A DNA stretch of 35,938 nucleotides from Stramenopiles sp. TOSAG23-6 (lineage: Eukaryota; Sar), in contig LT635942.1 in the NCBI GenBank assembly GCA_900128565.1, positions 1 through 35,938 on the forward strand, read 5' to 3'. Positions 5,501 through 35,938 of this stretch are shown here, piece by piece (positions within the stretch are counted from its first letter, which is position 1; each line of letters starts with the position of its first letter). Below the pieces are notes generated by a model. The model was given only the letters and a program-made list of their open reading frames with translations, did not search any database and was not told the origin of the DNA. Made by a program: the position numbers and the translations under genes.

Positions 5501-6842
5501 CTCAAAGCTCATGTGTCTTACCTCAAAGCTACAATAATTGTGGTGGTGAAGGTATAAAAAATATTACTTTTCGATCACTTGTGTCTACGAATGCCAAAAT
5601 TAGTCTTCAAGTTCAAGTCAATGGTGTAACATTACCAAAACCCATTACAGCTAAACCTGCACCCGTAGGTACACTTAATGAAGGTGATCTTTCGTGGGAG
5701 TCTTTGATGATCAAGGGAACACTTCGTGTAGGTACTAATACCATTAGTGTGAAAATTGATCCTTCTACTTTATTTTCTTCGGATGCAATTGCAGGAAAGT
5801 TAGATGGACAAGCATTTGAGACAAAAACAAATACAAGATTGCTTCATTGTATGAAAGCGTGTAGAGAAAAAGCTAATTGTATGAGTATTAACCATTCAGA
5901 TGACAATAAATGTGAACTCAATAATCAGGTGATTGGCAAATGTAATACCTGCAATAAATATTCAACAGAGGGTTGGTCGTATTACGCAAAGTATCCTACT
6001 GGTATTGCTATTGATAGTGTTGTCATTTCAGGATGGCCGTCAGATCTACCACGGCCAGATTTTCAAAATACATTTACAAAATTCTCGCAATCAAGGTGGA
6101 TTATCAAACGTCTATTGGCTCCCACTGGCGGTGATGCACTTCAAACAGGGACTCTTTCAGTACTGAAACAGAAATGTGTCTCCAATTATTTCAACAGTAA
6201 AGTATGTACATCTATTTCTTGTGATATGAAAACTAAAGATAGTGCTTTAGTGTTAGATATTGATGATTGTACAGCATGGTATGGTGTTAAAGAATGGGTG
6301 AAGTCTGATCTAGTAATATCCTTTGTATTGCGTTATTCTGAAGATTTTTTCGAACCATTTGAAGGCAATGGCAAATGTAGCGGTAGTAATGATGACCAAG
6401 TTCAGCTTACACCATACTATGTACTACCTGCCCCTGAGCGAAGTCTAGATGAATGCAAAGAAGTTTGCTTACAGTATGAATTATGCGTTGGGATATCATA
6501 TGCCGATTTTGCCGATGTTTCTGGAACACCTGCCATTTGTGAAATTGCCATTCTTGAACTTGATACTGGTAAGCCTCCGGATGAAATTGAAGGTCTTCCT
6601 TTATTTGGGGCACAATCTTTTATGACAGGCTCTTCTGGGTCTAATTCGTGTAGTAAGGGCACAAAAACAGACAAAAGTGGTGACTATTCTAAGTTCCAAG
6701 CATACAGATTATGCAGTGATAGAAATTTAAAACTTCAATCAGATTTAACTCCTGAAACAGAACATTTATGTTCTACGTCAGAAAAAGCACGGAAATCTTG
6801 CTTCCCATTGACTGGAGCATCATACAATGCCCCCAAAAAAAA
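2563..6842 (+). CDS. Giant modular surface protein, segment 3: PA14 and repeated PAN modules
   Basis: This is the third frame segment. A PAN module (about 2440-2660) spans the break and is followed by a PA14 domain (about 2665-2992), recognisable from FSVCYTG, ADDGSRLWLDGKIIHDQW and INFKWEP. Further PAN-like modules lie at about 3150-3340, 4378-4625, 4650-4905, 5785-5995 and 6355-6560. PSI-like Cys repeats (C-x-x-x-GC-x-Y/W) lie at 3376-3546. A GAG-x-x-x-x-NG-x-Y module (3763-3960) recurs at about 13259. A Cys-knot-like CC-x-x-x-CG module at 5110-5520 is interrupted by a GY-x-x-x-D-x-I beta module (5165-5395). The frame ends at TGA 6874-6876; the following frame is already open from about 6812, and the C5A8 run at 6830-6842 is the likely site of a one-base error. 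Confidence 0.82.
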
Positions 6843-18800: not shown

Positions 18801-20432
18801 TAGATGCGTTGCCAGACACCAATACGCCTAATTTACCTAGAATTCTCAGTATATTTGAAATTATCAAAACTGATGCGTCAAAAAATTTATATACTTNTGG
18901 TAATGCAGGTGTTGGGATTTCAGGTAAGGGTGGTGAATGTACTTGTCCAGACAATCAAAAATATATTGTAGGTGACATTTATGATAATTGTACTTTGTCG
19001 TGTATTAATAGGAAAGAAAACACTGTTGGTAATGAAGTTTGTGCAGCAAATGGTGGGCGAAAAGATGGAAAAACCGGTTGGTCGGTAGACTGTAATGCAG
19101 GTGCAGCAAATGTTGTAAAGTTATTGAATGCTATTTCAGTATCTGATAATCGGAAATTTATCAACACATTTAGTCGTTTAATTCTTGCTCGATCATCGTT
19201 ATCAAAAGTTTCTCCTTCGCCAAGTTATACAATCAAACAAGTCAGATTGTTGACTGATTTGCAAAATCAAACGGTTTATCCTCGTGTTGGTCTTACATTT
19301 GAAGATTCGCGTATACAAAATGAATTATGTGATGTGGATTCTTGTGGTAATTGTAATACTAAGGTGGCATGTGCTAGCAAGAATTGTGTATATGAAGAAA
19401 GTGCGGCTGTGTGGGCGAGCTCAGCATATTCTCCAGTGGGTCAAAAAGGTTCTCTTTCTAATGATGCTACATTAATGACTGTCGCGTGCAACTCTGTCAC
19501 TGAAATTGCTTTTAGTGAAAAAATTTGGACAGATCAGTGTAGCCCTTCAAGTTATAGTGCTTGTGTCGCGGCTTCTTCAACGAATGGTTGTGGGATTTCA
19601 TCTTTATTTGTCAATAGGTGTCATGCACGCACTAATGGTGTACAAGCTTCATTAATTGGTTCACCTGCCAATGCTGCAGCTGGTGGATCAACTATTTGTG
19701 CAGACGCTCGTCTTCAAAGTAGTTTCTGTGTTTCCAAATGTTCCGTATCTTCTTGTAGCTCTTGTGTAAATTCAACAGAATGCAGCAATGTCGGGTGTAG
19801 ATGGGTAACACATTTTACTAACAGCACTAGTGGTACTATTATTGAGAGTTGCGAAGCTCCAAATCCTCCATGTAGCGAGGAAAATTGTGATATGTGTAAA
19901 TCCGTTAATGATTGTTCGACTGTATCTGGTTGTGAATGGTTTGATGATGCACCTTATTCTCGCTGTCGTCCTGATCAATGCAAGGGTGATTGTAGTGCTT
20001 GTGTTAGTTTAGTAGCTGCAAGTATTTCAGCTGAAAGTAGATGTAAAGAACGAGAAGTAGGTACAATTGCGTCTTATGAAGAAGGAGTTCGTTGTCATTG
20101 GTATGCACAAGAGTCTACATGTTTAGATGTCTGTAATCCATGGAACTGTGCAGGGTGTACAACAAAAACCGACTGCAATGCAGACACTACGTATTGTACA
20201 TGGAATGATACGAGTAGTACTTGTTTGGCTAGAAGTACTGACTGTGGAATGACGTGTAATGAGGGAGGAAATGGTGTTCTTTGTGTGCCACAAAATTGGG
20301 TATGTGATGGTACATCTGATTGTCCAGTATCAGAATGTGACGAAAGGGCTTGTACTGATGAAGCTTTTGATATATCTAAAGCTAATAACTTGAGTAACGG
20401 TTGTTGTCGTTGGACAACATACCAGATGAAGT
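6843..20432 (+). CDS. Giant modular surface protein, segment 4: LamG, discoidin, lectin, sushi and Cys-repeat modules
   Basis: This uninterrupted 13.6-kb frame is the largest block. Modules in order: LamG-like jellyroll (7262-7770); PSI-like repeat (7813-7890); beta modules; a Cys patch (8965-9140); a Trp-rich module at 9590-10200 that recurs at 16170-16670; a C-x-D-x-x-KNG...GIDCGG-x-C-x-x-C motif (10210-10300); PAN modules (10303-10485, about 10980-11380, 11690-11850); discoidin-like (12370-12590); one EF-hand-like loop (12620-12655, D-x-N-x-S-x-T-x-S-x-D-E); ShK-like Cys module (13036-13185); discoidin-like (13700-14075); C-type-lectin-like (15290-15750, CYIGLE and WKWGDQS); CC-x-x-x-CG Cys module (15835-15950); sushi/CCP (15953-16130); discoidin-like plus PAN (17085-17545); PSI/furin-like Cys repeats (18331-18650, 19327-20230); LDLa-like (20236-20360). 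It ends at a T|GTATGT donor. One N lies at 18897. All of this is predicted extracellular. Confidence 0.87.
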
Positions 20433-20534
20433 GTATGTCAACATGAATTTCATTTTTTTTTTTCGTACCAAATTTTGCAAGTAAAGATTTTTTATTGACC
20501 AATTTTGAATGTTAAATATTTTTCCACAATACAT
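20433..20534 (+). other. Intron A, introner-like, non-AG 3' end (102 bp)
   Basis: The intron begins GTATGT after AAGT and ends CACAATACAT. Removing exactly this segment joins Q-M-K-C to S-G-N-T-F-A-R and leads in frame into the next 7.4-kb open frame. The nearest AG acceptors (TAG at about 20537, AAG at about 20555) shift the frame or create a stop. The inner core is degraded relative to the other copies (it still has CGTACCAAATTTTG), so this looks like an old copy. Confidence 0.8.
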
Positions 20535-23500
20535 GTAGTGGCAACACATTTGCAAGAGCTCCTGCTGGATATCATATATCTGATGAAGTTTGTGCGGATT
20601 ATTGTTGTACTACTGCAAATTGCAAGGTGTGGCAATGGAAACCTATATTTGGTTGTTTTGTTGGAGATCCTGCAATTTGTGGTGTTGACGAAAAGGGGGA
20701 AACTTCAACGAGTGGTTGGGAAGGTGGATATAAATCAAGTTCATCGTATACTCTACCTGTACCCGCTAGCGCACAAGTTGCGTGTACGAGTTCGCAAGGT
20801 GAATGTGGAGATGGATCATGTTATGAGTTATATGCTCAATGTGATGGCGTTGACGATTGCGATACTGGTGCAGATGAGTCAGATTGTGGCATCAATGAAC
20901 TTGAATTGTCTGCCAGTTGCAGAGGCATAGTTAAAGTGTATCACGGTAATAAATGGGGAACAATTTGTAACGAAGGTTGGACAGCTCTTAGTGCTAAAGT
21001 TGTATGTGCCCAACTTGAGTGTGGTGGAGTGGTAAATCACCAAGATTTGACATTTGGTCTTGGAGAAGGCCAGATTCACTTGAAAAATGTACAATGTAAT
21101 GGACTTGAAAATAATCTATTTGAATGTTTGACTTCAGATATGAATGGTAATCCGTTTAGATGGGGCGCATCTGGGTGTACCCACGAACAAGACGTTGCCA
21201 TCGTTTGTCAAAATGGTGTACAAAAACCTCCAACGTGTGCGCAGTTGGGTGGTCATTCAGAGTGTGATCAAAATGAATATTGTGGTTTTGGTGGAGCATC
21301 TGATCCATCATGCCTTCCACACGAGGAATGTTGTATTTATCAAGATACATTTAACCAGGGAGCTTGCCCTCATGTTTGTGAAGATTTAGGTTGTACAGAA
21401 CATCGAGGTGCCAACGGTTGCAACACCGATCAGTTTTGTAGTACCACTGGGTCTTGTATGAATCTAGATCAATGTTGCTTCTTCAAGTCTGAGGCCGTTG
21501 GTGGTGCCTGTCCTACAGATTGTACAGGTAAAGAGCGTTGCGAAGGGAAATTACAAAGAGAATCCGTGGGTAGTAAATGCGGTGAATGTAGTCCTTCCTA
21601 TTCAGGGCTTCCTGGAATGGGTAACACTTTATGTACATCAGCGATGACCCCGAGTTCATTTTATCCAAATCCAGTATTTGCTCCATTTTCAGCACAATCC
21701 GCAGGGCCCAGATCACGTTTTGCTGTCGCTGATATTAATAATGATACTTTTGATGATATAGTTATTGGTGGTAAAGCTTCGAAAGGTGAACCCTTGGTGT
21801 ATATGGCTTCAACATCTTGTGGGAAATGGTCTGAGAAAACAGGCAACGAAAATCCATTTCAATACTCTTCAGATGGAAAATCAGGGTTAGTTTTAATTGG
21901 AAGTACGACACTTGGTGAAAATCTTTCTCCCTCATTTGTAGACTTTAATGGAGACGGGTTACAAGATTTATTTGTCGGGACTTCAACTACTATTAGATAC
22001 TTAGAAAATATCACTGCTAGTGGAGTGATAAAGTTTAAAGAAAATGTTGATCAAAACCCTTTTAAAAGCAACCTTCCTTCAAATGGGAAAGATTTCTATG
22101 TTGTATGGGCTGATCTAGATCAAGATGGTGATTATGATGCTACTATAGGGAACGCTGCAGGCGAAATTGTTGTGTACCGTCGTGATAGTGTTAGTACGTT
22201 AACGAAACTTGAGGAGAAAGATGTAATATGCACTGGAAGTAATGTCAAATGTAAAACGTATACTAAAACTGACTGTGAAAAAGATGCTGCTTGTAGTTTA
22301 GTTTCAAACCCAAACGAAAATCCCTTTTTTTCAGCCAGAAATACCCAAGATTTTGCATTTTCCAGTCTAAAGAGCACGACAATTGCATGGACAGATGTAG
22401 ACACAGATGGTGACTTGGATGCTGTTGTTGGAGATCAACTTGGTTCCTTATTCTATTTTGAAAATATTGGAATGAAAGGCTTAATAACTTTTAAAATTGG
22501 TGGTAATGGTACATTTTTTGAAAATGAAGTCATCGTAAGCAATAATGCAGTTGCGACTGTTGAAAAATGGGTTCCGAGTACCCGGAGTCTTCACGTAAAG
22601 TATGATGGTATGGGATTTCTCACATTCGCAAAGGATGTTGCTGTAGTTGGTCCCAGTGGGACATGGACGACTGAAACTTTTGTCAGTACAATACATTTAA
22701 TTGCTCAAATTGGTTCTGTCAATCCTTTCAATGGGATAATGACACTTGAAAATGTGGCTCCTACATGGATTGATATAGATTGTGATTGTGACATGGATTT
22801 GTTAGTCGGTGGTTCTGCATCTGTAGCTACTGGTGCATCATGTGCTAGTGAAGATCCATCAACAAATTATAAATTATTCAAAAACATCGGTGATACAAAA
22901 CCATCTGTAATGGCAAGGCGTGAAGGGAGTTCAAATCCATTCTTTAGTCTACTGAGTGCTCGTATATCATTCAGTGCACCCGCATTTGTTGATATCGATG
23001 ATGATGGCGACTTTGACTGCTTTGTTGGTACAAAAGAAGGATCAATTGAATACTTTGAAAATATAGGTAGTCCGACAAATCCAGTTTTTACTCATCAAAC
23101 AAGCTCGTCTAACAATCCACTGAGTATGATTAGCGATACAAATATTTATTATACATACCCCGCATTCTTTGATATTGATAAGGATGGTGATTTGGATTTA
23201 TTTATTGGAACGGAAAAAGCGGGTATTAAGTTTTATCTAAATGAAGGTACAAAGAAAGTACCGAAATTTCGGTTAGAAGTAAACGATAATCCTTTGAGAA
23301 GTGCAGAAGCAACTCTGACAACACCATTAAAATTTTCTCGAATTGTTTTTGCCGATCTTGACGGTGATGGAGAATCAAGTTTGTTTATCGGTGATTCAAC
23401 TGGAAGTATTCGAAGCTTGAATAAAGTGTATTGGAAATGGGATTATTGTACAATTGGCACTCAAATCCGCCATTCAACAAAAGCAAATGATCTCGGCCAG

Positions 23501-26500
23501 CGAGGCATAATTGTTGGTATTTTAGGCTCGAAATTTTCTATAATATTTGAAGGGTCATTAGACCGAATACTTGTATTACACAACACGAAAGCATCTTGTC
23601 AAAATGATGCCAATAGGTCCTGCGTAGTTGTTGCTAAGAATCGGCATCCATGCCTTCCAGATGTAGCCTGTTGGAAAAATGATTTTACAACGAATGCTTA
23701 TTTTGCTGAACATTGCAAAGATTCATGGACGACTGCATCGGCGACTGGAGTACCTTTAATTGATGTCAATGTTGGCTCACTTGCTCAGCCTTCTTTTGTA
23801 GATATTGATGGTGATGGCGACTTGGATGTTTTCCTTGGCATGACGTCATTCTTTGAAAATATTGGATCATCACTGAGTCCAGTGATGGAATATCGTGATG
23901 CTGTGATGCCATTTGGAGCTCTTGATTTTGGCGTTTTTACTAGTATATCCTGGGTTGATATTGATGGGGATAACGACCCTGATGCGTTTGTGGGAGATAG
24001 CGAAGGAAATATTCATTATTTTAAAAATGTCAGAATTACAGACGAAAATATTGAGATTATTAGTGTTGACTTTTTATCGTATTCTTCAACATATGGAGTT
24101 ACCGTATCTCTGAATTGGACTTCTAGCGAAATGGTTGAGAGTAGTACTTCAAAGGCATCTAATTCGCCTCAATATGTTGTCTACTATGCTGACTCTCAGG
24201 ATAAGGCGGGAAAATGTGGGGCTTCAAATAGAAATTGCGGTCGTGTGTTCCCAGGAATGCGGACATCTACGTCAATTTCTGGTTTAGATCCGAATGTGTC
24301 TTATTATTACTCAATTGGTGTATTACAAGCATCCCATGCTGAAAACGGAGCAGTGTATCTTCCTGTTAAACCACCCATTGACTGCAAAAAAAAAAAAAGT
24401 AGAAGATTATCAAATGGTAATCATGGGCGGAGATTATCTAGTGGTGGTGCATCAAAGGTTCTACCTCCTTTACCCCCAGATATAACCAAAGCATATTTTG
24501 TATACAGAGGTCCTGATCCAGACCCCAAAGCAAATGGTTCTTGTTCAGGTAAACTCTCAACATCTATCGTATGTACAACTTTAACCACGAAGGATACATG
24601 TATAGCAATTGATGGTTGTACATTTAGCGATTCTCATTTGGTCGGTGGTAATATTTTATCTATTGATAGTATTAGTGGCAAGGATCCTAATCGGAAACCA
24701 GGATTGTATGAAGTATCTGTGTTTAGTGGTGGAAGCACTAATAGCAAAGGGGCCGTTTTTACAATTAAAATTGACAATGAAAGTGGTAAGGGAGGCGCAG
24801 TAAGCGTTTTCATAAAAAATGCTGGTGTAAAGTATAAGACAAATGATACAATTACTGTTGCCGATTCTCAGTTAGGTGGTCTTGGTGGAGTAGCCTTAAC
24901 ATTTGATGTAGCAACTGTATCCATTGCGCTGGTGGCATCTGGTGTTGTCAGTGCCGGTGAACCTTCCTGTTGTGCGGCAACTACTTCATATTGTTTTTCG
25001 GGATCTTCATGTGTTCCACCAAATACAGGAATGCCTAATAATATCGTCCGCGGTACAACAAAAATAACAGATGTTTGTCCTGCTAAAAAAGTTAATGGAA
25101 ATGCAACTCTAATGTGTAATAATAAAAAACGAGAATTATTGTTAACGTCGTGTACAGGAACGCCAAAGCCATGTCAACATACAGATTTCCAAAATAATAA
25201 ATCTAGGTGTCCAACCTCAAACGGGTGTGTATACACTGTATCTGGATTTATTGCACAACTTGCGCTTGCTTGGCGAAATGCTAATGCAAAACTTAAATCT
25301 GGTGAAATTCGGTTAGATGTTAAGAACTATCGTGTAAGATGGTCAAAAGATGCTTTGATGAAGTCGAATTCAAAATGTATAGATTTATCAAGTTCTCCTA
25401 CGCCTCCACCATGTGATCAAATTTTTGTCAATTTGGGTAATGCATGTGACAATAGAGAAGGCTGTTCCTGGAATTCCGATGGGTCATGTAAAGGAACGGC
25501 AACCCCATGTTCCGATGCTTCAATGCAAGGTGATAAAAACAAGTGTACAACATTTAATGGCTGTAAGTATATAGAACAAGAGAAAATCACACAGGCGACA
25601 ATACTAACAACAACATCACGTAACCCAGTTACAGCAGATGGTGATTGGTACGTTGACGTTACTCCTTATAGTGTACTTGGGGCAGGAGTACCAACAACTA
25701 TACTAAAAGTACAATGTGGTCCAGGTCAATTTAGACCTTCATCCAATGAATGGCTGAATTTACCATTTAGTTTAATGAATCGAAGCAATGGTTGTGCTCA
25801 TTGTGTTCCTGGCAAGTATCAGAAGAATGCAGGGAAATCATCCTGTTCAATATGTCCGGCAGGGAAGTTTAATCCAGATATTGCATCGACCGACTCTAGT
25901 GCATGTGTTCCGTGCATTGCAAAAACATATTGTCCTGCTGGTTCATCGGAGCAGCTACCTTGCCCAGCAGGATTTTATTGTCCACAACCCAATATTAAAT
26001 CTCTGTGTGCTACAAAGGGTTCAAAGTGCCCGCAAGGTTCTACTCAAGAAGGCACTTGTCCTTCAGGTAGTTTTTGTTCTGATCCAACAAAGCAAAAGAA
26101 ATGTGTTTTAGGCGTTGATGATAAAACAACAAGTGGTGTAGATGAAAGCATAGGTATACATTGCCCTGCTGGTGTAACTGTCCCCATTCAATGTGAAGCT
26201 GGTTACATTTGTTCAAATCCATCAACGAAGGTTAAATGCAATGATGGGTTTTATTGTCCATTAGGATCTATTTCACAGACTAAATGTTTGAAGGGACACT
26301 TTTGTCCTACTCCTCTCGAGCAAAAGGCGTGTACGAGAAACTATTGTGTAAAGATTGATGACAAAGGTAATCAGACAAAAGAACCTCTTATTAAGGATAA
26401 AACTAAATGTATCAGTTCATGTAGTGAGAGTGCAATATCCGTTGAACTCTTATGTAAAAACGTATGTACGAAATCGTGTACTTCAAGTGATGGTACAGGT

Positions 26501-27932
26501 GTAACAGAATGTAGTAATGCTAATTTATATTTCACAGGATCTTGTGACAATCCAAAATCTGCAGATATCAAAGATTCATGTGGTCATTGTAGCGTTGCTG
26601 TTAAAAAGACGAATACAGAATGTTCAGATGTAAAAGGAATTTGGACTGCAGGTGTATGGACAGAATCTACAAAAGAAACCGTGGATGCTGAAGTTAATTG
26701 TAAAAATGCCCACTCATCTTGTATATATGTAGGTCCACCAGTTGGCTCGCAGGAGGTTTGCTCGAAAGGTGATCATACAAAGACAGGAATATGTTTACCA
26801 AATTCACCGACTAATTGCTACAAAACAAGCCAGAGTGCTTGTACAAATGTTGCAGGATGTGTATGGAAAACAAAAGTACAATGTGCGGCACAAGATTCTT
26901 CGTGTTGTTTACATAATTGTACTGACGTTGCACAGACATCAACTTCATGTGGGAAGATCTCAGGTTGTAGCTGGAAAAATTTGGCATGGACTCCACGTCA
27001 GTGGACGAATCATTTATGGATAGAGGCAACATTATGCGAAGCTGGTTATACACAGCAAATTATATGCCCAGCTGGCTATTCTTGTCCCACCGTATCATCA
27101 AAAACTGCATGTCCAGCGGGAACTTTTTGTGAAGCTGGCTCTAGTAATCCAGTAGAATGTCCCGCGGAGTTCTATTGTCCTCGAAGTGATACGCAACAGT
27201 TATGGGGTTTAACGAAACGCCCTTGTGTCGTAGAATTGCATCATTGTCCTCCTAAATCTGTGACAGCAAACATTTGTCTTGCATCTGCTTGGTGTCCAGT
27301 ACCTAGTAAACAAGAAACAATAACAGTAAAAGTTATAGGTACTGTACGTGGATATGATGTAACATCTGGCCTTCGATATCAAAATGCTATCATTGATCCC
27401 ACTGTAGCTCCCACAAATTACGGTAGTGATACAAACACAAGAAAACTTTCTACAAACACAAGAAAACTTTCTACTCGAGACTGTTTAAGCCCTGGCCAAT
27501 GTGAATTGTTTGACAATACGCCTTGGGATAGTGGTGGTGTAATTCCAATCTGGGTAGAACTTTCCCCAAATGAATTAAAAGGATTAGATAAAGGCACACG
27601 GTTTACAAATAGACATATAGTAACTTGTGAAATTCATACTACGAATACTGCTAATGTACAGCTCGAAGGTGCTCAAATTGAAATAAATCCGTCCAATGGA
27701 ATTGGAGTTTTTAGTAATTTCAAAATTATTATGCCTCCTGGAGGAACTGCAACTATGTATATCTCATGTACTTCAGTCCCTAATGTTCGCGTATCACCAC
27801 TCAATGAATATCCTATTGATGGATTTATGAAAGGTATAGTTGATAATCTAAAGGTAGGAGAAGGTCAATCTGAAACTAATTTCTACAAAACAATTGCACC
27901 AAAAAGATATTTTTCGGTAAAACTTCGCCCGT
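20535..27932 (+). CDS. Giant modular surface protein, exon 2: LDLa, SRCR, VCBS repeats, Fn3-like, GCC2/GCC3
   Basis: This 7.4-kb exon continues the ectodomain. Order: a Cys/Trp module at the start (about 20590-20680); an LDLa repeat (about 20780-20890, CDGVDDCDTGADESDC); an SRCR domain (about 20900-21215, GTICNEGW, CNGLENNLFEC, VAIVC); CC-containing Cys modules (21235-21640); ten VCBS/FG-GAP calcium-binding motifs (21731-23980); an Fn3-like domain (24045-24370); PSI-like repeats interleaved with beta modules (24537-25600); and GCC2/GCC3 (ephrin-receptor-like) Cys repeats (25720-26350 and 27030-27290), followed by a beta-rich region just before the membrane part. Basic R-R/K-L-S motifs occur in pairs at 24400-24435 and 27437-27474. 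The exon ends at CGCCCGT|GTACG. The VCBS, SRCR and LDLa calls are strong; the others are by pattern only. Confidence 0.87.
21731..23982 (+). repeat. Ten VCBS/FG-GAP calcium-loop repeats
   Basis: Ten D-x-D/N-x-D-x-(x)-x-D-hydrophobic-x-x-G motifs start near 21731, 21941, 22112, 22394, 22772, 22991, 23171, 23354, 23801 and 23956. They are typically preceded by P-x-F-V-D and followed by a Y-F-E-N-I-G strand, as in integrin-alpha-like beta propellers of the VCBS/FG-GAP class. Spacing is mostly about 170-380 bp, with a 447-bp gap between the eighth and ninth that carries an inserted Cys-containing segment. The fifth (DIDCDCDMD) has Cys at two loop positions. Confidence 0.9.
27431..27472 (+). repeat. 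21-bp perfect tandem duplication encoding T-N-T-R-K-L-S twice
   Basis: Two identical, adjacent 21-bp units (27431-27451 and 27452-27472) encode TNTRKLS twice in frame inside exon 2. The identity at DNA level indicates a recent duplication. The repeated R-K-L-S resembles the R-R-L-S pair at about 24400-24435. Confidence 0.95.
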
Positions 27933-28032
27933 GTACGTTTTTCATCATTCATTTCAATTTTAGGTGTTTCATAGAAAATTCCATATTTAACAAAGTCTAA
28001 TTTCTAATTTCACATATTTTTTCACAATACAT
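27933..28032 (+). other. Intron B, introner-like, non-AG 3' end (100 bp)
   Basis: It begins GTACGT after CCGT and ends CACAATACAT. Exact removal gives R-P-C-V-R-G-E, placing the Cys at the start of the final GCC2/GCC3-like Cys region and keeping the frame. The core is strongly diverged. A stretch ATCATTCATTTCA is shared with intron C only 280 bp away, suggesting the two are sister copies. Confidence 0.75.
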
Positions 28033-28208
28033 GTGTTCGAGGGGAAACCATTGTTGAAAATATTTGTACAAAATGTGTTTCTGGGAAATATTCCTGGGGA
28101 TTTCCTGTCATTGCGCCTCCAGCTTCAGATGCAACGATTTGTTTGGACTGTCCAAATCCTGGTGGTTATTGTCCTGGCGGTGATGTTATTGTTGCACAGA
28201 AAGACTAT
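28033..28208 (+). CDS. Giant modular surface protein, exon 3 (membrane-proximal Cys region)
   Basis: This 176-bp exon encodes V-R-G-E-T-I-V-E-N and then the juxtamembrane cysteine motif (ICTKCVSGKYS, CLDCPNPGGYCPGGD) found before the membrane region of protist GCC2/GCC3 multi-TM proteins. It ends K-D-Y just before intron C. Splicing to the following W-R-S restores the D-Y-W-R-S string seen in that family. Confidence 0.82.
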
Positions 28209-28297
28209 GTATTTTTTTATCATTCATTTCATTTGTTTTTTCATACGAAATTTTGTACCTAACAATTTAATTTTGCGACATATTTTTCAATATACAT
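28209..28297 (+). other. Intron C, introner-like, non-AG 3' end (89 bp)
   Basis: It begins GTATTT after CTAT and ends CAATATACAT. Exact removal yields D-Y-W-R-S-G. The core at 28242-28263 is the family consensus (CATACGAAATTTTGTAC then CTAAC). The 5' end ATGTATT and the family's usual 3' end AATACAT are perfect 7-bp inverted repeats; in this copy the 3' end reads ATATACAT. Confidence 0.82.
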
Positions 28298-29920
28298 TGG
28301 AGATCGGGTAAGAATTCAACTTCTTTCTACTCGTGTTTTAATGATTTTGAATGTCAAGGACACACTAAAGATACTGATAATAGCATGTACACTAGTGCGA
28401 ACTTCACCATGCTAGAAGGATGCAGTGAAGGACATGGTGGTATTCTTTGCTCTGTTTGTATTGATGGTTATGTCATGGCACCTGATGAAACGTGTCACAC
28501 ATGTCCTCCGCGTGAATACACTGCAATATTATTTATTATTGTAATAGGGGCTATAATACTCTTTTTACTTAATTTGTGTTATTTTACTCGTAAACCAGAA
28601 AATGGACCTGACTATGAACATTTGCGCCAGCCTGTGGTGTCACCTGGCACTGCAAGGAGAATGACGGCTCATCATTTAAAAACGAAGTCAACCACTCGTA
28701 TTGCAGACTTAATGCTTAATGCAAAAGTTGATTACAATGCCTTTATTCAGAGAATAGAGGAGGACGATTGCATTACTTCGAGTTCCGATGAAAACGACGA
28801 TGAGCCAAAGTCTGCCGAACTGTTACGTAGAATTCGAATTCGCGACCAAATCGATTCACAAATTGTTGATGTTAATGATATATTCTTTGGTGGTTATATT
28901 GGTGCTTCTGTTGCTGGAAATACTGCACATCGAATGCAAGAATTACAAGTAATGAATAGTCGACAAAGACATCACGCTTCAAAGACTTCAAAAACTTCAA
29001 AGGAAAGAAAAAACTCACTTTCACCAAAAAGAGGTGATTTTGTAGCAAGTAACCACAACCACAACGGGTCAAATATTCAAAATGCATCCAATCTAGGTGC
29101 TGTGAGTTATGGTGTAGGTGAACTTGCCGATTCGAAATCTCGAGTTGCTCTGGAAGATGTTCGAAGATCTATGTTAGATACAGGTTTGGTTGACGCTCAA
29201 GATATTGCAGGAGCAGTTGTTGGCGATGAAGCAGTCCAAGACGTTGTTGGTGCAGATACAGAAGTTGATGCAAAAGAGATTGTCATGGAAAGATTAAGTA
29301 TGGCAATGAAAAGTGAAAAGGGAACTGAAATAAAATCTGCTGTGATAAATCGCGTCGGTGCTGGCTCGGGTGCTGGGGAGGAAAAATCAGCACTTAGTCA
29401 AGCATTTGAGGATGCTACGTCCGGTGCACTTGATACTGGCTTGGTTGACGTTGAAGATATGGCAGGAGTTGTTGTGGGTGAAGATACAGTGGAGGATATT
29501 GTTGGAGCGGATACAGAAGCGGATGCAAAGGAAATTGTTGCAGAAAGATTAAAAGCTGCAGTGGAAAGTGAAAAGGCAGATGAAATGAAAGAAGCAATTC
29601 GTGGGGCAGCTGAAACCAAGAGTGGCGGACCATCTGATGAGCCTATAAAACAAAACAATAATGATTCACTACCAGGTGATGATGATGGAAATTTTTCAGA
29701 TCTTGACATGGAAGCACTAAATGCTCAAATCAATGAACTTGCTGAGGAAGAATTTTTATACGGTGCAAATGAAGCAGGNGAGGCNGCAATGGTTGAAGCG
29801 AAATCGGAGTTAGCAAAAATGAAGGGTATATTAAGCGATGCTGATGAGTATTGGACTTCAATCATTGCAAAAACAAAGATTCTCATTGGTTATTTACAAA
29901 TTGTGTCACAATTCCGTTTT
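28298..29920 (+). CDS. Giant modular surface protein, exon 4: last Cys region, first membrane helix, cytosolic acidic region
   Basis: It opens with W-R-S-G-K-N-S and the last extracellular cysteines (CSEGHGGILCSVC, CHTCPP), then a clear membrane helix at about 28513-28590 (AILFIIVIGAIILFLLNLCY). What follows is long and cysteine-free: a Ser/Lys-rich stretch, then an acidic helical region with an internal 85-residue-spaced duplication (29171-29360 and 29426-29612), then the amphipathic run KILIGYLQIVSQF that precedes the second membrane block in related proteins. Two N positions (29779, 29785) lie in the coding region. The helix direction implies the duplicated region is cytosolic, if the ectodomain is outside. 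Confidence 0.87.
29171..29612 (+). repeat. Diverged tandem duplication in the cytosolic region
   Basis: Two copies of about 60 residues start at 29171 and 29426, 255 bp apart. Both read L-D-T-G-L-V-D-(A/V)-(Q/E)-D and continue with V-G-A-D-T-E-x-D-A-K-E-I-V and a mixed-charge helix (ERL-x-x-A). The copies differ at many silent and replacement sites, so the duplication is not recent. I know no family for it. Confidence 0.9.
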
Positions 29921-30031
29921 GTATTGGATGCACGTTTTCATTTTAATTTTTTATCTAAATTTTGTTTTCGTACGACATTTTGTACCTAACAAATTTTGAA
30001 ATTGTTTTTGAAATATTTTTTCACAATATAT
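29921..30031 (+). other. Intron D, introner-like, ends ATATAT without any AG acceptor (111 bp)
   Basis: It begins GTATTG after TTTT and ends CACAATATAT. Removal gives V-S-Q-F-R-F-V-P-W-P, matching the SQF...VPWP motif expected at this point in GCC2/GCC3 multi-TM proteins. No AG lies between the poly-T tract and the conserved VPWP codons, so a standard acceptor is not available here. The core at 29969-29990 is close to consensus. Confidence 0.85.
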
Positions 30032-31555
30032 GTACCTTGGCCAAATTTATATACTGGTTGGATGAATTTACTTGACGCATTAAATCTGGATTTAATTGAC
30101 ATTTTCGGAAATATCAATGTTTGTCAATTGTCCGTACCATTTACCGAAAAATTTATATTTATAATTCTATTTTTTCCAATTACAATACTACTGCTCTTAC
30201 TTGCACGAGCGTCTGCATTTGGATGCCGTGCGACCAAAATATATTTTGGCAAACAAGCACAATTCTTCAAGTTTAGTGTTACAGATAAGTTTTTCAAAAT
30301 TACAAATTTGATATACTTTTTACTTTATCCTTCGGTAGCATCTAAAACATTTATGGTGTATAAATGTGAAGAAGTTGGTGGTGTCGAATATCTCCGACGT
30401 CAAATGAATGTAACATGTAGTTGGGACCCTAAAAAAAGTCATTGGGCATACTTAGGTATGGCAGCAATAATTTTTGGCATTGGCTATTTAATTGTAATTC
30501 CTATTTGTTACATTTTTCTATTATACCGAAATCGCCAAATTTTAGCACACCCTCATGATGCACCTCATAAAGTTCCAGGCCTCTTAGAAGACGAAGAAGT
30601 AATGCGACGATACAGAAAACGCCTCAGTCGTTTTGGAAATGTATTTAGTCCATATACATATGGTTACTGGTGGTTTGAATGGTTTACACTACTTCGAAAA
30701 CTTATGCTTACAGGTGGTCTTGTTTTGGTTTCCGAGGGAAGTGCCGCGCGGATTAGTTTAGGTCTGGTAATTAGTTTCTTCTATCTTGTTGTAAGTGCAA
30801 ATATTGCACCATTTTACGATCCTTATGATGATATGCTTAGTCAATTAGCATCGATATTGCTTTTTTTGACATTGTTATGTGGACTCGTCTTAAAGATGGA
30901 TTTTGCTGAGGAAGGTAGGTATGAAAATTCTGTAATTGATGCGGTATTGATGATAATGAATATCGGAATTGTACTTGTTGGCATTTTTATTCTTATCATG
31001 GCAATACCACCTTTACGGCGACGTATTGAAGATTTTATTCACCGCCGTAAAGTGGAAAGGAAAAGGAGAATAACATTTGCTGGTCGTAAATTTGTTCGGA
31101 AAGTCCCCTCAAAATGGGATTTAGCAAAAAAGGCTGAAGAGGAGAGAGAAATTGACGAAAAATTTGGATTGAAGCGAAGTTCTACTCGTGCTATTCCGAT
31201 ATCACCTCAAGTATTAGAATTAAAGCAATTAAATGATAGCAGTTTCNATTCGTCTGATTCAGATGGGAGTCAAAATCAGCTTCATTTACTTCGTCGGAGT
31301 CAGAGGCACAAGTCAATTATCCGCAGAAATAGATTAAATAGCCCCGTACAATCTAAGAAACACACACGTCGTGATTTAGGTTGGTCATCTGGAGTATTTA
31401 GATCAAAGAAAGAACGTTCTGAATTTGAAATGATCACATTGGATTCAGATGGAAATGATTTGAATTCTCCTGAGCCACTTTTAAGAACGAAACGATTAAT
31501 GAAAACTAAAAGTTTTATGCGACCAAATATTTTAAAGGATGACGATAAAATATGA
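30032..31555 (+). CDS. Giant modular surface protein, last exon: multi-TM region and basic tail
   Basis: This 507-codon exon starts V-P-W-P and contains about seven hydrophobic segments: roughly 30145-30225, 30290-30350, 30445-30525, 30685-30735, 30750-30815, 30838-30895 and 30935-31010. The tail, about 180 residues, is basic and Ser-rich, with no recognised domain, and ends at TGA 31553-31555. The arrangement (Cys-rich ectodomain, one helix, spacer, SQF/VPWP, several helices) is that of the GCC2/GCC3-multi-TM proteins of protists, which are often annotated as TRP-like. I see no pore or ligand residue that would prove channel activity, so sensor, adhesin or channel all remain possible. One N lies at 31247. 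Confidence 0.87.
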   Translation, partial: VPWPNLYTGWMNLLDALNLDLIDIFGNINVCQLSVPFTEKFIFIILFFPITILLLLLARASAFGCRATKIYFGKQAQFFKFSVTDKFFKITNLIYFLLYPSVASKTFMVYKCEEVGGVEYLRRQMNVTCSWDPKKSHWAYLGMAAIIFGIGYLIVIPICYIFLLYRNRQILAHPHDAPHKVPGLLEDEEVMRRYRKRLSRFGNVFSPYTYGYWWFEWFTLLRKLMLTGGLVLVSEGSAARISLGLVISFFYLVVSANIAPFYDPYDDMLSQLASILLFLTLLCGLVLKMDFAEEGRYENSVIDAVLMIMNIGIVLVGIFILIMAIPPLRRRIEDFIHRRKVERKRRITFAGRKFVRKVPSKWDLAKKAEEEREIDEKFGLKRSSTRAIPISPQVLELKQLNDSSFXSSDSDGSQNQLHLLRRSQRHKSIIRRNRLNSPVQSKKHTRRDLGWSSGVFRSKKERSEFEMITLDSDGNDLNSPEPLLRTKRLMKTKSFMRPNILKDDDKI

Positions 31556-31724
31556 AGTTGCTTAAAAGAAATAAATTAAACTTAAGTGAATCATGTATTT
31601 TTCTTTGTAACCATTTGAAAAATAAATATAGTGATAACTCATTTATTTTTTCAATTTTTTCAATTTGTTCATATTTTATTTAATTAACGGATCATTTTTC
31701 GTTGCTCCAGTCCCATTGATTGAT
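31556..31724. other. Convergent 3' intergenic region with poly(A) signals for both genes
   Basis: This 169-bp spacer is AT-rich. AATAAA occurs on the + strand at 31570-31575 and 31621-31626, serving the giant gene. TTTATT (AATAAA on the - strand) occurs at 31642-31647 and 31675-31680, serving the LRR gene. The signals overlap in space, so the two transcripts probably have overlapping 3' ends. Confidence 0.6.
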
Positions 31725-33596
31725 TTACAAATCTAAGTGATCTACATCCTGTACATGTATCATTACATTTGAAAACAGGGCATCCTGTAACCCTTCTGAT
31801 AAGTCGTTCTCAAAAATATAGAGATGTTCTACTTTCAAATCCCAATGATAATCTTTAAATTCACCATCAATTTGATTATGCCTTAAATTCAGATGCTCAA
31901 TTTCGTGAGCAAAAAATCCAGCGAAACTTTCCAATTTATTATGAGACAAATTCACGAGTTTGTAAGATTTTATTGGCAATCCATGCACCGTCAGCATATT
32001 AACTCTATAATAGTTATCTGAATCACTGCAAATAATGTTATCCAATTTAGGCAGTGTCGGAAATCCAACAAAATTCTTCATGTGCCCACGGGTTATTTTA
32101 AAAGTATCTAGTTTGTTAAGCAAATTAGGCAAACCAATGAAACTTGAAATTTGTGAATTTTGTATTTCAAGCGAAGTAAGATGTTCCATTTGTTCTGGAA
32201 ATCCGACTAAACTTTTAATCAAGGAACCATCAATTCTCAATGTTTGCAGATGTTGTAATCCTGAAAGTAGAGAAAGTTCACGAAGCCTTTTTCGGGGTAA
32301 GCACATATCGTCAAATTCATATAGACCACCATCAGCACCAAAATATTTACCACCAAAATCCTTAATTAGTTTCGCAACCTTTTTCGATTTCTTGCCAATT
32401 GCAAGACCCATATCTTTCAAGAAATCTTCCTCACTTGATTCAAGTAAGGGTTGAAGATGTCTGAAGAGAGGGCATATTCCACCTTCAAAATGTGGATCAT
32501 CTGCAGCTTTCTCTGAAAATCTCTTGAGCAATACTTTTTTAGACATCACCTCGAGAAGAACCGACGACGCCCTCGAACTTATAAGATAATCACACATATG
32601 AAATAATGTTTTAGAGTCAAATTCCCAAATGAAACTATTGAACAGATCCCCATGTATCTCTTCTTTCGTACTTAATAAATAAGCATGTTCAATCATGCTT
32701 GCTCCAAAACNATGAAAGGACAACGCTTGTTCCTTTAATTTTATCAGGATGTNACGTACATCATCGAATTCCGGATACCTTTCATGACATACATCACTTT
32801 CATATAAATAGTATTGCGCGANTTCCACNGAGATAAAAGGTTGTGCATTTTCTAGTAACCATTTTGCATTTTCCAGATAACGATCTGTATCATCCAGACC
32901 TGCATCNTGTAAAAACAATTTCGCCTTGTCATCATTACCTTTTTGATGTGATAATTTGACCAATTTTTCATTAACACAACGTGTTCCAATATTATTCTCG
33001 AGGTATTTTTCAGGAGGTAGCTGATGCGGATAAACTTTTCTCAAAATAGCCTCAGCGGCAGGCTTAAAAAGTGTCCCCCTTTTATCATCAAAAATATGGA
33101 ACAATCTACTGACACTTTCATCATTGAAGCAAGAAAGCAATATTCTTCTGATATTCACCATACCGAAGAAGTCAGAGGCATTTAGTAAGTTTAAACATGT
33201 CGAAAAATTGCCTTTTGAAGAAAGTAACTGTTTTACCGCTTCGACTGATTCCTTCTCCATCTTTTCTTTTATCTCAAATAAAAATTGAATTGTCTCAGAC
33301 GTTTGTGGTACTGGAATATCCTGTGAACAGTCAAATTCACCGAGTTCAGATAGTTCAGTTACATCCCATGATACCACTACTCGCTTTTCGTCAGAACATA
33401 GGAATGTAACTTTATCATTTTCTGACTCATGTTTTTGTCTTTTGCTGGCGCGAAAAGTACTCTCAGTCCCAGATACATTATCCGCCTCCCCTCGCCAAGA
33501 AGATTGATCAGCTCCTCGCGAGGAATGTATTTGGGAGTAAATGATGGTTGCTGTAAGTAATAGTAGCAACTTCATATTTCGTTTTTTTCCTTGCAT
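31725..33596 (-). CDS. Predicted secreted SKP1/BTB-like and leucine-rich-repeat protein
   Basis: This is a 623-residue intronless frame. The N-terminus has a signal-peptide-like core (residues 8-29, MKLLLLLTATIIYSQIHSSRG; Met1 or Met8 could be the start), then a basic patch SKRQKH at 51-56. Residues about 62-156 resemble the SKP1/BTB-POZ fold: a VTFLCSDEKRVVVSW strand pair, an I-P-V-P-x-T-S turn, and a helix ending L-N-A-S-D-F-F-G-M-V-N-I-R-R-I-L. The middle is helical with no clear family. The C-terminal ~190 residues form irregular leucine-rich repeats of about 23 residues, with recurring SLVGFP, SFIGLP, NFVGFP and SFAGF. SKP1/BTB domains normally recruit cullin ligases in the cytosol, so a signal peptide is unexpected. 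Five N positions fall at 32711-32907. No paralogue is present in the window. Confidence 0.8.
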   Translation of the reverse strand: MQGKKRNMKLLLLLTATIIYSQIHSSRGADQSSWRGEADNVSGTESTFRASKRQKHESENDKVTFLCSDEKRVVVSWDVTELSELGEFDCSQDIPVPQTSETIQFLFEIKEKMEKESVEAVKQLLSSKGNFSTCLNLLNASDFFGMVNIRRILLSCFNDESVSRLFHIFDDKRGTLFKPAAEAILRKVYPHQLPPEKYLENNIGTRCVNEKLVKLSHQKGNDDKAKLFLXDAGLDDTDRYLENAKWLLENAQPFIXVEXAQYYLYESDVCHERYPEFDDVRXILIKLKEQALSFHXFGASMIEHAYLLSTKEEIHGDLFNSFIWEFDSKTLFHMCDYLISSRASSVLLEVMSKKVLLKRFSEKAADDPHFEGGICPLFRHLQPLLESSEEDFLKDMGLAIGKKSKKVAKLIKDFGGKYFGADGGLYEFDDMCLPRKRLRELSLLSGLQHLQTLRIDGSLIKSLVGFPEQMEHLTSLEIQNSQISSFIGLPNLLNKLDTFKITRGHMKNFVGFPTLPKLDNIICSDSDNYYRVNMLTVHGLPIKSYKLVNLSHNKLESFAGFFAHEIEHLNLRHNQIDGEFKDYHWDLKVEHLYIFENDLSEGLQDALFSNVMIHVQDVDHLDL

Positions 33597-33880
33597 AGAA
33601 CTACTAAGAGGGTAGGTAGACCGTCGGCGTTGCTAAATTTTTTTTAAAATGACGCTGACTCTCGCTCACTCGTAATTACGATTACCCGGTACCAACATTT
33701 TTTGGAGCGCATCAAGCGTTGAATCATGGTACATAGAAAATGCCACAATGTCATTATCTTTTTAATACTGTTTGTTTGGGTTGAACTACACATTGAATAT
33801 TTCTTTTTATATTTCATTTTATTTTCTATACAGTTTGATTCTCTAGCAAGCTACAAAAAAAAAAAACTAACTCCATCAGA
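33597..33880. other. Intergenic region: promoter of the LRR gene and 3' end of the SNARE-like gene
   Basis: The region holds 284 bp without a supported gene. A minus-strand AATAAA (TTTATT at 33818-33823) lies about 60 bp past the SNARE-like stop codon. A T12-type tract and TAG follow that stop (complement of about 33850-33866) and look like an acceptor, but splicing there gives only a few residues before a stop. The part next to 33597 should hold the LRR gene promoter; I see no TATA box I would defend. Confidence 0.4.
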
Positions 33881-34150
33881 TTAAAACCAACGCATCATCC
33901 TGCTTAATATACTATTCGACGTATTTACAGTTTCCCTTGTTGCATCACACTCGACTTTTGCACATTCTAAAGATTCTCTCTGCTCTTTAAGTTCCTGCAA
34001 AACATATTGAGCTGTATCAGTTGTACTTTTTACAGTATTCATCATTTCGTTCAAACGATTCTGTTGTTCTAATAGTTTCTCTTTATTCGCCGATAACCGC
34101 TTATCATTTCTACTTGTATTGCTGTTGCTTTCATGTTTTCTAGGTGTCAT
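33881..34150 (-). CDS. Small SNARE-motif protein without a membrane anchor
   Basis: An 89-residue protein; an in-frame TAA two codons upstream of the ATG fixes the start. After a polar 20-residue leader, residues 30-86 form one amphipathic helix with SNARE spacing. With Gln57 as the zero layer, positions 33, 36, 40, 43, 47, 50, 54 and 61, 64, 68, 71, 75, 78, 82, 85 are L, M, V, T, A, V, L and L, A, C, T, V, S, L, M. This is the complete -7 to +8 layer set of a Q-SNARE, closest in feel to Qb (Vti1-like) or SNAP-25-type helices. The protein stops four residues after layer +8, with no transmembrane segment and no CAAX box. Role in membrane fusion is inferred from the motif only. It is divergently oriented to the C69 gene. 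Confidence 0.7.
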   Translation of the reverse strand: MTPRKHESNSNTSRNDKRLSANKEKLLEQQNRLNEMMNTVKSTTDTAQYVLQELKEQRESLECAKVECDATRETVNTSNSILSRMMRWF

Positions 34151-34437
34151 TCTTTAGTTGGAAGACATAAAGCACCCTTTTTTTGATTCCAGATTCTTCA
34201 CTATTTTTGCCTTGTCTCATGAGTCATATTCCTCAGTAACTACTGGAAAAAACCTCAGGTAACCAGGTTCAACAACACGATTTTTTTTTGTTTTTTTGAT
34301 GTTTCTGGCCATCAATTTAAATTAAATTTTAATCAATCACACAATGTCATTCGTTCGTTTGTTGCACATGTGTGTCAATCCACTTTACAAGTACTAACTT
34401 TGAATTGTATTCTTTATAGACTTATTACTCCTTTAAA
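34151..34437. promoter_or_regulatory. Divergent intergenic region between SNARE-like and C69 genes
   Basis: This 287-bp spacer separates two divergent starts, so it should contain both promoters. It carries T-rich tracts (about 34178 and 34282-34297) and an AT-rich block at 34313-34335. No specific promoter element can be named. Confidence 0.4.
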
Positions 34438-35161
34438 ATGCAACACTTTCTAACTTTCATTGTTTACGCCTCCATCATTCAAGGAACATTTTCATGCACT
34501 AATTATATGGTTACCAGAGGTGCATCAAATGATAATAGTACCATTGTGGCGTACAATTCTGATGGGTTTTCTCTATTTGGGTATCTTAAACACTTGCCAG
34601 CACAAGAATATGTCCCAGGAACTTTACGTGATGTGTATGACTTTACAAGTGGCAAATTTTTGGGTTCAATTCCAGAAGTATCGGCTACGTATAATGTGGT
34701 TGGTAACACAAATTCGGAAGGCCTTTCGATAGCAGAAACAACTTTTGATGGAATCGAAAAACTTGCAGAACCATTTCCTGGATCCATACTTGACTATTAT
34801 TCTTTAATGTGGATCACTCTTCAACGTACAAAAACTGCTCGTGAAGCAATCGCGACTATGGACATTTTAACTAGTAAATATGGATATGCGTCGACCGGAG
34901 AGTCATTTTCAATAGCAGATACGAAAGAAGTTTGGATCATGGAAATGATTGGTCGTGGGTTACATGAAAAAGGTACTGTTTGGGTGGCTAGAAAAATTCC
35001 TAATGGCGCCATCTCCGGCCATGCAAATCAGGCACGTATAGAATCCTTTCCTCTCAATTCCACAGATACTCTTTATTCTTCTGATATTTTTGAATTTTCT
35101 AAAAGGAACAATCTCACTGCACAAAATCTACCCAATTCAGAATTTAACTTTGCTCAAACAT
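34438..35161 (+). CDS. Secreted peptidase family C69 (dipeptidase-like), exon 1
   Basis: The ATG at 34438 is followed by a short signal peptide and then Cys20 (codon 34495-34497), starting the string CTNYMVTRGASNDNSTIVAYN. In family C69 Ntn-hydrolases the Cys that becomes N-terminal after processing is the nucleophile, and C-T-x-x...G-S-T-I-x-A-x-N-x-D is its usual context; here S-T-I-V-A-Y-N-S-D-G fits well. Other family strings are EVSATYNVVGNTNSEGLSIAETTF, ASTGESFSIADTKEVWIMEMIGR and a VWVARKIPNGAISGHANQARI strand. The exon ends F-A-Q-T at a T|GTATG donor. The protein probably cleaves small peptides in the secretory route, a vacuole or outside. The gene continues through three further exons and leaves the window. 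Confidence 0.88.
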
Positions 35162-35252
35162 GTATGCTTTATTTTTTTTTGGTATGAATTTTTTTTTCAT
35201 ACGAAATTTTGTACCTAACATTTTTTTTTTGAAATATTTTTTCAGAATACAT
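35162..35252 (+). other. Intron E, introner-like, non-AG 3' end (91 bp)
   Basis: It begins GTATGC after ACAT and ends CAGAATACAT. Removal gives A-Q-T-F-D-P-I-T, a family C69 string. Although a CAG lies 7 bases before the end, using it puts a stop codon right after the junction. The core at 35198-35219 is full consensus, including CTAAC. ACAT occurs on both sides, so the exact cut can slide by four bases. Confidence 0.85.
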
Positions 35253-35405
35253 TTGACCCTATCACCTCAATTGGTGCACGCGCATGTGACCTTAGGGTAT
35301 GGAATTTTTTTCGTTTAGCTCTAGGCAAACAAAAAGGCAGAAAATTTGCAGATAAATATCTCGAATATGTGAAAGGTTACAATTTAAGTAGACGAATGCC
35401 TCTAT
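35253..35405 (+). CDS. C69 peptidase, exon 2
   Basis: This 153-bp exon encodes F-D-P-I-T-S-I-G-A-R-A-C-D-L-R-V-W-N-F-F, the conserved FDP...GAR...RVW block of family C69, then a helix and S-R-R-M-P-L-Y. It is flanked by two near-identical introns. Confidence 0.85.
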
Positions 35406-35514
35406 GTATGTNGTATTTTTTTTTTAACAAAAAAATCGAATTTATTTTTCGTACGAAAATTTGTACCTAACAAATTTAAGTTTTTTTTTTTTGAAATATT
35501 TTTCAAAAATACAT
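35406..35514 (+). other. Intron F, introner-like (109 bp)
   Basis: It begins GTATGT after CTAT and ends AAAATACAT. Removal gives R-M-P-L-Y-V-Q-V-G, in frame. This is the one copy where a standard AAG acceptor nine bases further on would also keep the frame (P-L-F/V-G), so it does not discriminate. The core is at 35450-35471. One N lies at 35412 inside the intron. Confidence 0.75.
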
Positions 35515-35708
35515 ACGTACAAGTTGGTAATAATAAAGTGAGTGTCAATGATACGATGTGGGCGATGAGAGATCGATATCAAAACACGTGGTTTGATCAA
35601 AGTGGTCGTGATAAGCCCGACATTAGTGCAGGGCCATTCCATTCCCTAGTAAGAACAAGACCTTTAGCATTTGAATTGGGACAAAAAAAATATTCATTCG
35701 AAAGGAAT
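35515..35708 (+). CDS. C69 peptidase, exon 3
   Basis: This 194-bp exon encodes V-S-V-N-D-T-M-W-A-M-R-D-R-Y, followed by TWFD and AGPF and then RPLAFELGQKKYSFERN. These correspond to the family's D-x-x-x-x-M-R-D-H-Y, A-G-P and F-E-R blocks. It ends exactly at AAT|GTATGT. Confidence 0.85.
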
Positions 35709-35813
35709 GTATGTTTTATTTTTTTTTTTTTTGTATGAATTTATTTTTTATAGTAAATTTTGTACCTAACAAATTTTAGGGTTTTTTTTTTGAAATATTT
35801 TTCCAAAATACAT
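35709..35813 (+). other. Intron G, introner-like, non-AG 3' end (105 bp)
   Basis: It begins GTATGT after GAAT and ends CAAAATACAT. Removal gives F-E-R-N-V-G-Y-Q-G-T-F-F, in line with the C69 family's FER...QTGF-FVAQ region. Later AG sites (35826, 35854) shift the frame and truncate. The core at 35749-35770 has a changed left arm but intact TGTACCTAAC. Confidence 0.88.
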
Positions 35814-35871
35814 GTTGGTTATCAAGGAACTTTTTTCAACTTTGTTGCCAATAGTCGTGGTCATTTTAAAT
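35814..35871 (+). CDS. C69 peptidase, exon 4 (58 bp)
   Basis: This short exon encodes V-G-Y-Q-G-T-F-F-N-F-V-A-N-S-R-G-H-F-K, matching the family's Q-x-G-x-x-F-V-A-x-x-R block. It is followed by another T|GTATGT donor. The C-terminal part of the enzyme lies to the right of the window. Confidence 0.82.
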
Positions 35872-35938
35872 GTATGTTTTATGTTTTTTCAAATTCGATT
35901 TTTTTTTCGTACGAAATTTCGTACCTAACGATTTTTTT
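35872..35938 (+). other. Intron H, introner-like, truncated by the window edge
   Basis: It begins GTATGT after AAAT. Sixty-seven bases are visible, including a perfect 16-bp palindrome GTACGAAATTTCGTAC at 35909-35924 followed by CTAAC. Its 3' end is not in the window. Confidence 0.8.

Follow-up and report, generated by a model that had tools for sequence, protein, structure and literature searches.

Which signal ends an intron that has no usable AG, and how does the same kind of intron come to interrupt two genes of one contig? The question is raised by contig LT635942.1 of Stramenopiles sp. TOSAG23-6. All its 35,938 nucleotides (nt) were analysed, and they are called the window here. A preliminary description of this DNA had proposed seven introns (A to G) that end in ATACAT (ATATAT in D) instead of AG. 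Frame counts over a wider sample, conserved proteins and three public gene models that misfit at such introns support this proposal. The seven introns resemble each other along their whole length. Beyond what had been proposed, they are identified as copies of one dispersed element. Sequence and reading frame together define a single family, oriented in coding sense and cut as GT...AT|, with no need for an AG. We consider it very probable that these are major (U2)-type spliceosomal introns, spread as introners through the genome of a MAST-3 stramenopile. Introners are small mobile elements that also are introns.

The two genes and their introns are the following.

6812..31555, plus strand: giant gene, interrupted by introns A to D; its start may be further upstream
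20433..20534, plus strand: intron A, GTATG...ATACAT, degenerate branch motif, in-frame join, nhmmer family match E 1.1e-7
27933..28032, plus strand: intron B, GTACG...ATACAT, weak branch motif TATTTAAC at 27984-27991, nhmmer E 1.6e-7
28209..28297, plus strand: intron C, GTATT...ATACAT, branch motif at 28256-28263, nhmmer E 7.9e-9
29930..30031, plus strand: intron D (start corrected from 29921), GCACG...ATATAT, branch motif at 29983-29990, family model starting at 29930
34438..35938, plus strand: C69-family dipeptidase gene with introns E to H, running off the window end
35162..35252, plus strand: intron E, GTATG...ATACAT, branch motif at 35212-35219
35406..35514, plus strand: intron F, GTATG...ATACAT, branch motif at 35464-35471
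35709..35813, plus strand: intron G, GTATG...ATACAT, branch motif at 35763-35770
35872..35938, plus strand: start of intron H (the window ends within it), branch motif at 35922-35929, nhmmer E 1.1e-10

Joined from 6812, the giant gene has 8,115 codons and one stop, at its end. It matches Laminin_G_3, SRCR and FG-GAP, and hydrophobic segments are seen by eye near the C-terminus. The joined C69 gene matches Pfam Peptidase_C69 (PF03577) with 162.8 bits.

Reading frame and position of the cut

The window is contig C400 of a genome set of 8.03 Mb in 408 contigs, which apparently does not cover the whole genome. The fetched sequence, 318 kb with overlaps counted, contains 126 distinct introns at E<1e-3. 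Of these, 47 are incomplete at an end and 5 lie too near the end of their locus. The 74 that were kept take in loci fetched for carrying the motif (L001-L030). Automatic intron removal misplaced at least one end (PIGA, L032), and it served only to find candidate junctions.

Frames are readable in 90 nt on both sides of 58 introns. A cut at ATACAT| joins 54 of them in frame, against an expected third (binomial P about 1.5e-21). With flanks of 45, 60, 75 and 120 nt, the counts are 31/34, 42/45, 48/50 and 48/51. Earlier counts gave 39/55 with looser intron calls and 14/14 with stricter coding scores. A codon model trained on the window places 71 of the 74 introns in coding sense and none in antisense (three are unclear). 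In the window itself, all eight introns (A to H) follow the sense of the interrupted gene.

Conserved proteins also support the junctions. RPA135 (L004) and PRMT5 (L021) show no gap at the junction against solved structures. The preliminary description had suggested aligning the joined C69 protein to its relatives. The alignment to nine homologues (P0122-P0130) bears out the joins, with no gap at E, F or G; in several homologues, small gaps begin four residues past F. The giant gene has no gap at B and C against P0241. At C, the window reads QKDYWRS, which contains the string D-Y-W-R-S proposed earlier, against QKQYWRE in P0241.

The segments and ends of the seven introns lie where they had first been placed, except for the start of D, which was 9 nt too early (GTATTGGATGCACG at 29921). 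We place it at 29930 (AT|GCACG), since P0241 keeps the three codons at 29921-29929 and the family model starts at this position. Intron D is accordingly read as a GC-donor intron. The string R-F-V-P-W-P had to be abandoned. It came from the join QFRFVPWP, while the corrected window gives QFRFVLDVPWP and P0241 has QFRFVLEVPWP. Junction A, whose intron has a degenerate branch motif, is placed by its reading frame and lies outside the homologue coverage.

The upstream exon usually ends in AT and the intron also ends in AT, so the cut can slide. In a MYB gene (L050), an Arg codon, which we take to be conserved, is completed from the upstream exon. This excludes shifts of -1 and -2. On the other side, E needs a Phe that is invariant in the C69 homologue alignment, and F needs an aromatic residue, which excludes a shift of +1. 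If one rule holds for the whole family, the cut is GT...AT|. An AT-AC reading (U12-type, cut two letters earlier) was also considered. The MYB codon rules it out, and E and F fix the other side.

A dispersed intron family

Copies are roughly one hundred nt long, with the layout AT|GTAYGTTTTA...TACCTAAC...ATATTTTTCCAAAATACAT|. The consensus of 66 aligned copies is ATGTATGTTTTattttTTTTTcAATTTcgAATTTTTTTTTCgTACGAAATTTTGTACCTAACAAaTTTTttTttTTTTTGAAATATTTTTcCAaAATACAT (lower case where the majority letter does not exceed 60%). A search for the branch motif TACCTAACAAATTTT that allowed up to one mismatch gives 1,002 matches, 529 of them forward and 473 reverse; the motif reversed gives 4. For the 3' motif ATATTTTTYCAMAATAYAK the number is 812, and its reversed control gives 0. 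Both counts include duplicated and palindromic contigs. The viral contigs are free of exact matches to the 20-base motif TTTTGTACCTAACAAATTTT.

Of the 812 matches to the 3' motif, 100 were listed. Without the 13 rows of the duplicate contig C14 and the 6 rows of mirrored halves of C4 and C27, a hand count gives 81 distinct copies. The 3' pattern (...AYA[T/G]) permits only AT or AG endings, and 76 of these copies end in AT and 5 in AG. Therefore, the rule is that AG is not needed, not that it never occurs.

In the 74 introns, the donors are GT (63), GC (3), AT (6), TC (1) and TT (1), and the last two letters are AT (63), AC (5), GT (4) and TT (2). The acceptor is YAT where other introns have YAG (C 82% or T 17%, A 91%, T 93%); these end percentages are biased upward, because the 74 were chosen by a model built from copies with GTAY/ATACAT-like ends. 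The exact branch sequence TACCTAAC, of the CTRAY kind expected in U2-type introns, is present in 63/74. From the branch A to the last intron letter, the distance has a median of 41 nt and a range of 31-56 nt. Between the branch site and the intron end, an AG is skipped in 26/74.

We also screened 236 kb (the window and twenty 10-kb contig starts), where 88 family matches are found at E<0.05. Coding segments on the same strand are separated by gaps of 30-220 nt in 36 places, and 23 of these gaps contain a family intron. By eye, the other 13 look like weak coding or intergenic sequence, and no gap in this crude screen is convincingly GT-AG.

Some copies are arranged in pairs. On the plus strand of L023, branch motifs at 1823/1886 (63 nt apart) and 2273/2370 (97 nt apart) indicate tandem or nested copies. 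On the minus strand of L024, near 438, the sequence AACCCTAACCCTAACCC lies beside a branch motif and resembles a telomeric repeat.

Probable copying of the family

Old introns held to one long consensus by strict splice-signal constraint, with no copying, could also share sequence. The most conserved blocks are indeed the three splicing signals. Nevertheless, copies at unrelated loci are up to 97% alike. The interior similarity exceeds that of controls with shuffled interiors in which the ends and the branch site were kept (median best match 0.88 vs 0.78, maximum 0.97 vs 0.83). Moreover, for 11 of the 100 listed copies (10 without the duplicate contig C14), a contig end is no more than about 40 nt away; near-identical copies that interrupt the assembly would have this effect. 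We regard constraint without copying as unlikely.

Among the listed copies, contigs C11, C23, C29, C43, C68, C75, C84, C89 and C101 start in one, and C13 and C14 end in one. Motif positions are mirrored on C4, C27 and C75, which are palindromic contigs. Such contigs, like the identity of C13 and C14 at the five loci compared, are expected of whole-genome-amplified single cells.

The exon borders carry what may be a short trace of insertion. The flanking exons favour ACAT|GTAT. Within loci, position -2 of the upstream exon matches the last-but-one intron letter at 0.78 vs 0.67 between loci (0 of 1,000 shuffles). Interior similarity, short inverted ends and this 2-bp direct repeat suggest introners, and insertion at AT with a 2-bp duplication is likewise suggested. 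A longer target duplication was considered and discarded: positions 0 to +3 are GTAT-enriched downstream, but within loci they do not clearly match better than shuffles do (the lowest P, 0.079, is at +3). For this reason, only two duplicated letters are claimed. If these letters make up the end of the intron, its usual AT and its occasional AG, AC, GT or TT would be accounted for.

Splicing machinery and removal of the introns

A PRP8 gene is present, with an open frame of 2,021 amino acids. A piece of 604 residues aligns to human Prp8 1279-1877 with 1,288 bits. About 57 of the 599 compared positions differ by hand count, which makes it about 90% identical to human. The stretch that is presumably the site of the 3'-splice-site finger is identical to human. 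The compared region gives no sign that PRP8 would be the changed factor. With such similarity over 599 residues, the change is probably elsewhere in the machinery, and perhaps traceable. SLU7 is also present (E 7.6e-54, profile positions 91-253). The presence of PRP8 and SLU7 makes U2-type splicing with a relaxed 3' end the best explanation.

We propose the following mechanism. A typical copy carries a 5' splice site that resembles the one of yeast (GUAYGUUUU), followed by the branch site UACCUAAC and the 3' block AUAUUUUUCCAAAAUAC. The block is followed by two letters, mostly AU, which tend to repeat the last two of the upstream exon. The ordinary spliceosome would remove these introns in RNA, and the consensus suggests that GUAYGU and UACCUAAC are recognised as usual. 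The 3' cut would fall about 41 nt past the branch adenosine, just after AAUAC and two letters, with no AG needed. What sets this end would be the block, together with how far it lies from the branch site, and not the first AG. The family would spread by inserting new copies at an AT inside ACATGT-like sites. A broader version of this proposal is more tentative, and we lean slightly against it. In it, one introner family would have taken the place of nearly all other introns in this MAST-3 lineage, and the spliceosome would choose the 3' splice site by the fixed block CCAAAAUAC and 2 nt, at a constant distance from the branch site, and no longer by AG.

Alternatively, the introns could be removed without a spliceosome, with paired ends defining the cut, in a manner comparable to the hairpin ends of Amoebophrya introners (available sections of PMC7789003). 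The complementary ends ATGTAT/ATACAT and the direct repeat at the cut agree with it. However, the strong consensus of the 5' splice site and the branch site, the presence of PRP8 and SLU7, and a weak predicted end pairing with no covariation make it very unlikely. In euglenids, nonconventional introns have no splice-site or branch-site consensus, and their ends are thought to be joined by pairing. An intron of this type does not fit the strong donor and branch consensus seen here, nor the weak pairing predicted. An RNA hairpin of the intron ends was also rejected, as it is barely above its control.

Several observations weigh against spliceosomal introners. The junctions are deduced from sequence and frame, and 4 of the 58 introns are off frame at ATACAT|. 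A query for U1, U2, U6, zf-U1 and U2AF1 had no match in the 8.03 Mb, in a search without a useful positive control. If the host is MAST-3F, this set covers 8.03 of 21.1 Mb, so the missing U1, U2, U6 and U2AF1 mean little. The match at exon position -1 is marginal (0.85 vs 0.82, P 0.048, with 18 positions tested). The inverted ends have only 6 nt (ATGTAT/ATACAT) and no compensatory change. The predicted pairing of the ends is little above that obtained with a shuffled middle (0.26 vs 0.23). Finally, neither an empty allele nor an autonomous element was seen; the one pair of contigs compared for empty sites, C13 and C14, is identical at the five loci.

AG acceptors and public gene models

Another explanation is that these are ordinary GT-AG introns. 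A nearby AG would be the true acceptor, and the ATACAT block merely conserved intron or exon sequence. We searched for acceptors from 30 nt into each intron to 45 nt past its end. The preliminary description had found no usable AG in A, D, E and G. This holds for the last three: D (with the start at 29921) has no AG in the range, both AGs of E shift the frame, and the sole in-frame AG of G leads to an immediate stop. It fails for A, which has an in-frame AG 24 nt downstream. In-frame AGs lie downstream of B, C and F too, but their use deletes residues kept in homologues. Over the sample, the next downstream AG is in frame in only 22/58 introns and the last internal AG in 7/21, about the third expected by chance.

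The public gene models of this host look partly AG-spliced, in favour of such acceptors. The PRMT5 product has its best match in EukProt GSMAST32.ASY1.ANO1.2347.1, with 584 of 589 aligned residues identical; the five mismatches all border gaps of the public model. This model is missing the Glu of DNELSPE, a loss that splicing to a downstream AG would give. The C69 gene matches GSMAST32 445.1, and the giant gene matches 444.1. The public C69 model P0121 has nine extra residues at E and three missing at F (as if AG-spliced there), departs from its homologues at G and then ends. The giant-gene model P0244 reads into intron B and stops there. Thus, all three public coding sequences checked (PRMT5, C69 and giant gene) are evidently wrong at family introns. 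They are also gapped elsewhere, away from these introns. The frame counts, the residues lost and the lack of a usable AG at D, E and G leave GT-AG splicing highly improbable.

Excision from the genome at the DNA level, as for the internal eliminated sequences of ciliates, would account for the inverted ends, the 2-bp direct repeat and the restored frame, but the coding-sense bias, the branch site and the T-rich tract make it practically negligible, and to our knowledge no stramenopile has a second nucleus.

Host and other features of the window

By its database label, the host is a MAST-3 stramenopile single-cell assembly, which we read as one of the two Genoscope MAST-3 single-cell genomes (PMC5778133, as far as its accessible text describes them). 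It may be MAST-3F rather than MAST-3A. The same text gives the MAST-3F assembly 21.1 Mb and 37% BUSCO, and describes a low-abundance species whose bacterivory is doubted. It also reports that, for MAST-3F, complete protein matches were too scarce for a gene finder to be trained. In our opinion, this training failure may be linked to the introns described here.

Upstream in the window, the long open reading frames (ORFs) 2-1132, 1071-2567, 2560-6876 and 6812-20446 overlap in different frames (1071-1132, 2560-2567 and 6812-6876). They look like one giant gene shifted three times, by assembly indels or by real frameshifts. Between the two intron-bearing genes, the minus strand has an ORF of 635 amino acids (31725-33632) with no family intron. 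Its leucine-rich-repeat match is below threshold (24.5 bits, cut-off 27).

Comparison with known systems

In the literature searched, which excluded most subscription journals, preprints and supplements, the text available describes no MAST-3 introns with such ends. A wide departure from the AG rule is described there in few eukaryotes (Amoebophrya and Fritillaria). In the MAST-3 stramenopile, it comes with one simple intron family. Re-annotation by the ATACAT rule should improve many gene models.

In the tunicate Fritillaria borealis, non-GT/AG introns also occur with 3' AC and AT ends (NAR 2026, PMC13326754, in its accessible part). There, they are tied to duplicated U2AF subunits; the 8.03 Mb examined here yielded no U2AF1. 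Like our family, the introners of diverse eukaryotes (Gozashti et al. 2022, PMC9860276, sections available) are similar introns present in many genes, and many of their families have target duplications and inverted ends. That search starts from annotated introns. In contrast, the MAST-3 3' end is mostly non-AG, and the public models checked misplace the introns.

The nearest precedent is Amoebophrya A25 and A120 (Farhat et al. 2021, PMC7789003). According to the accessible sections of that article, this dinoflagellate also has many repeated non-GT-AG introns with inverted ends and short direct repeats at the boundaries. Its introns have no fixed dinucleotides, inverted repeats of 8-20 nt and direct repeats of 3-5 nt, in 252 and 1,954 strain-specific families. 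The MAST-3 stramenopile, on the other hand, has one family with a fixed donor, branch site and 3' block, inverted ends of 6 nt and a direct repeat of 2 nt.
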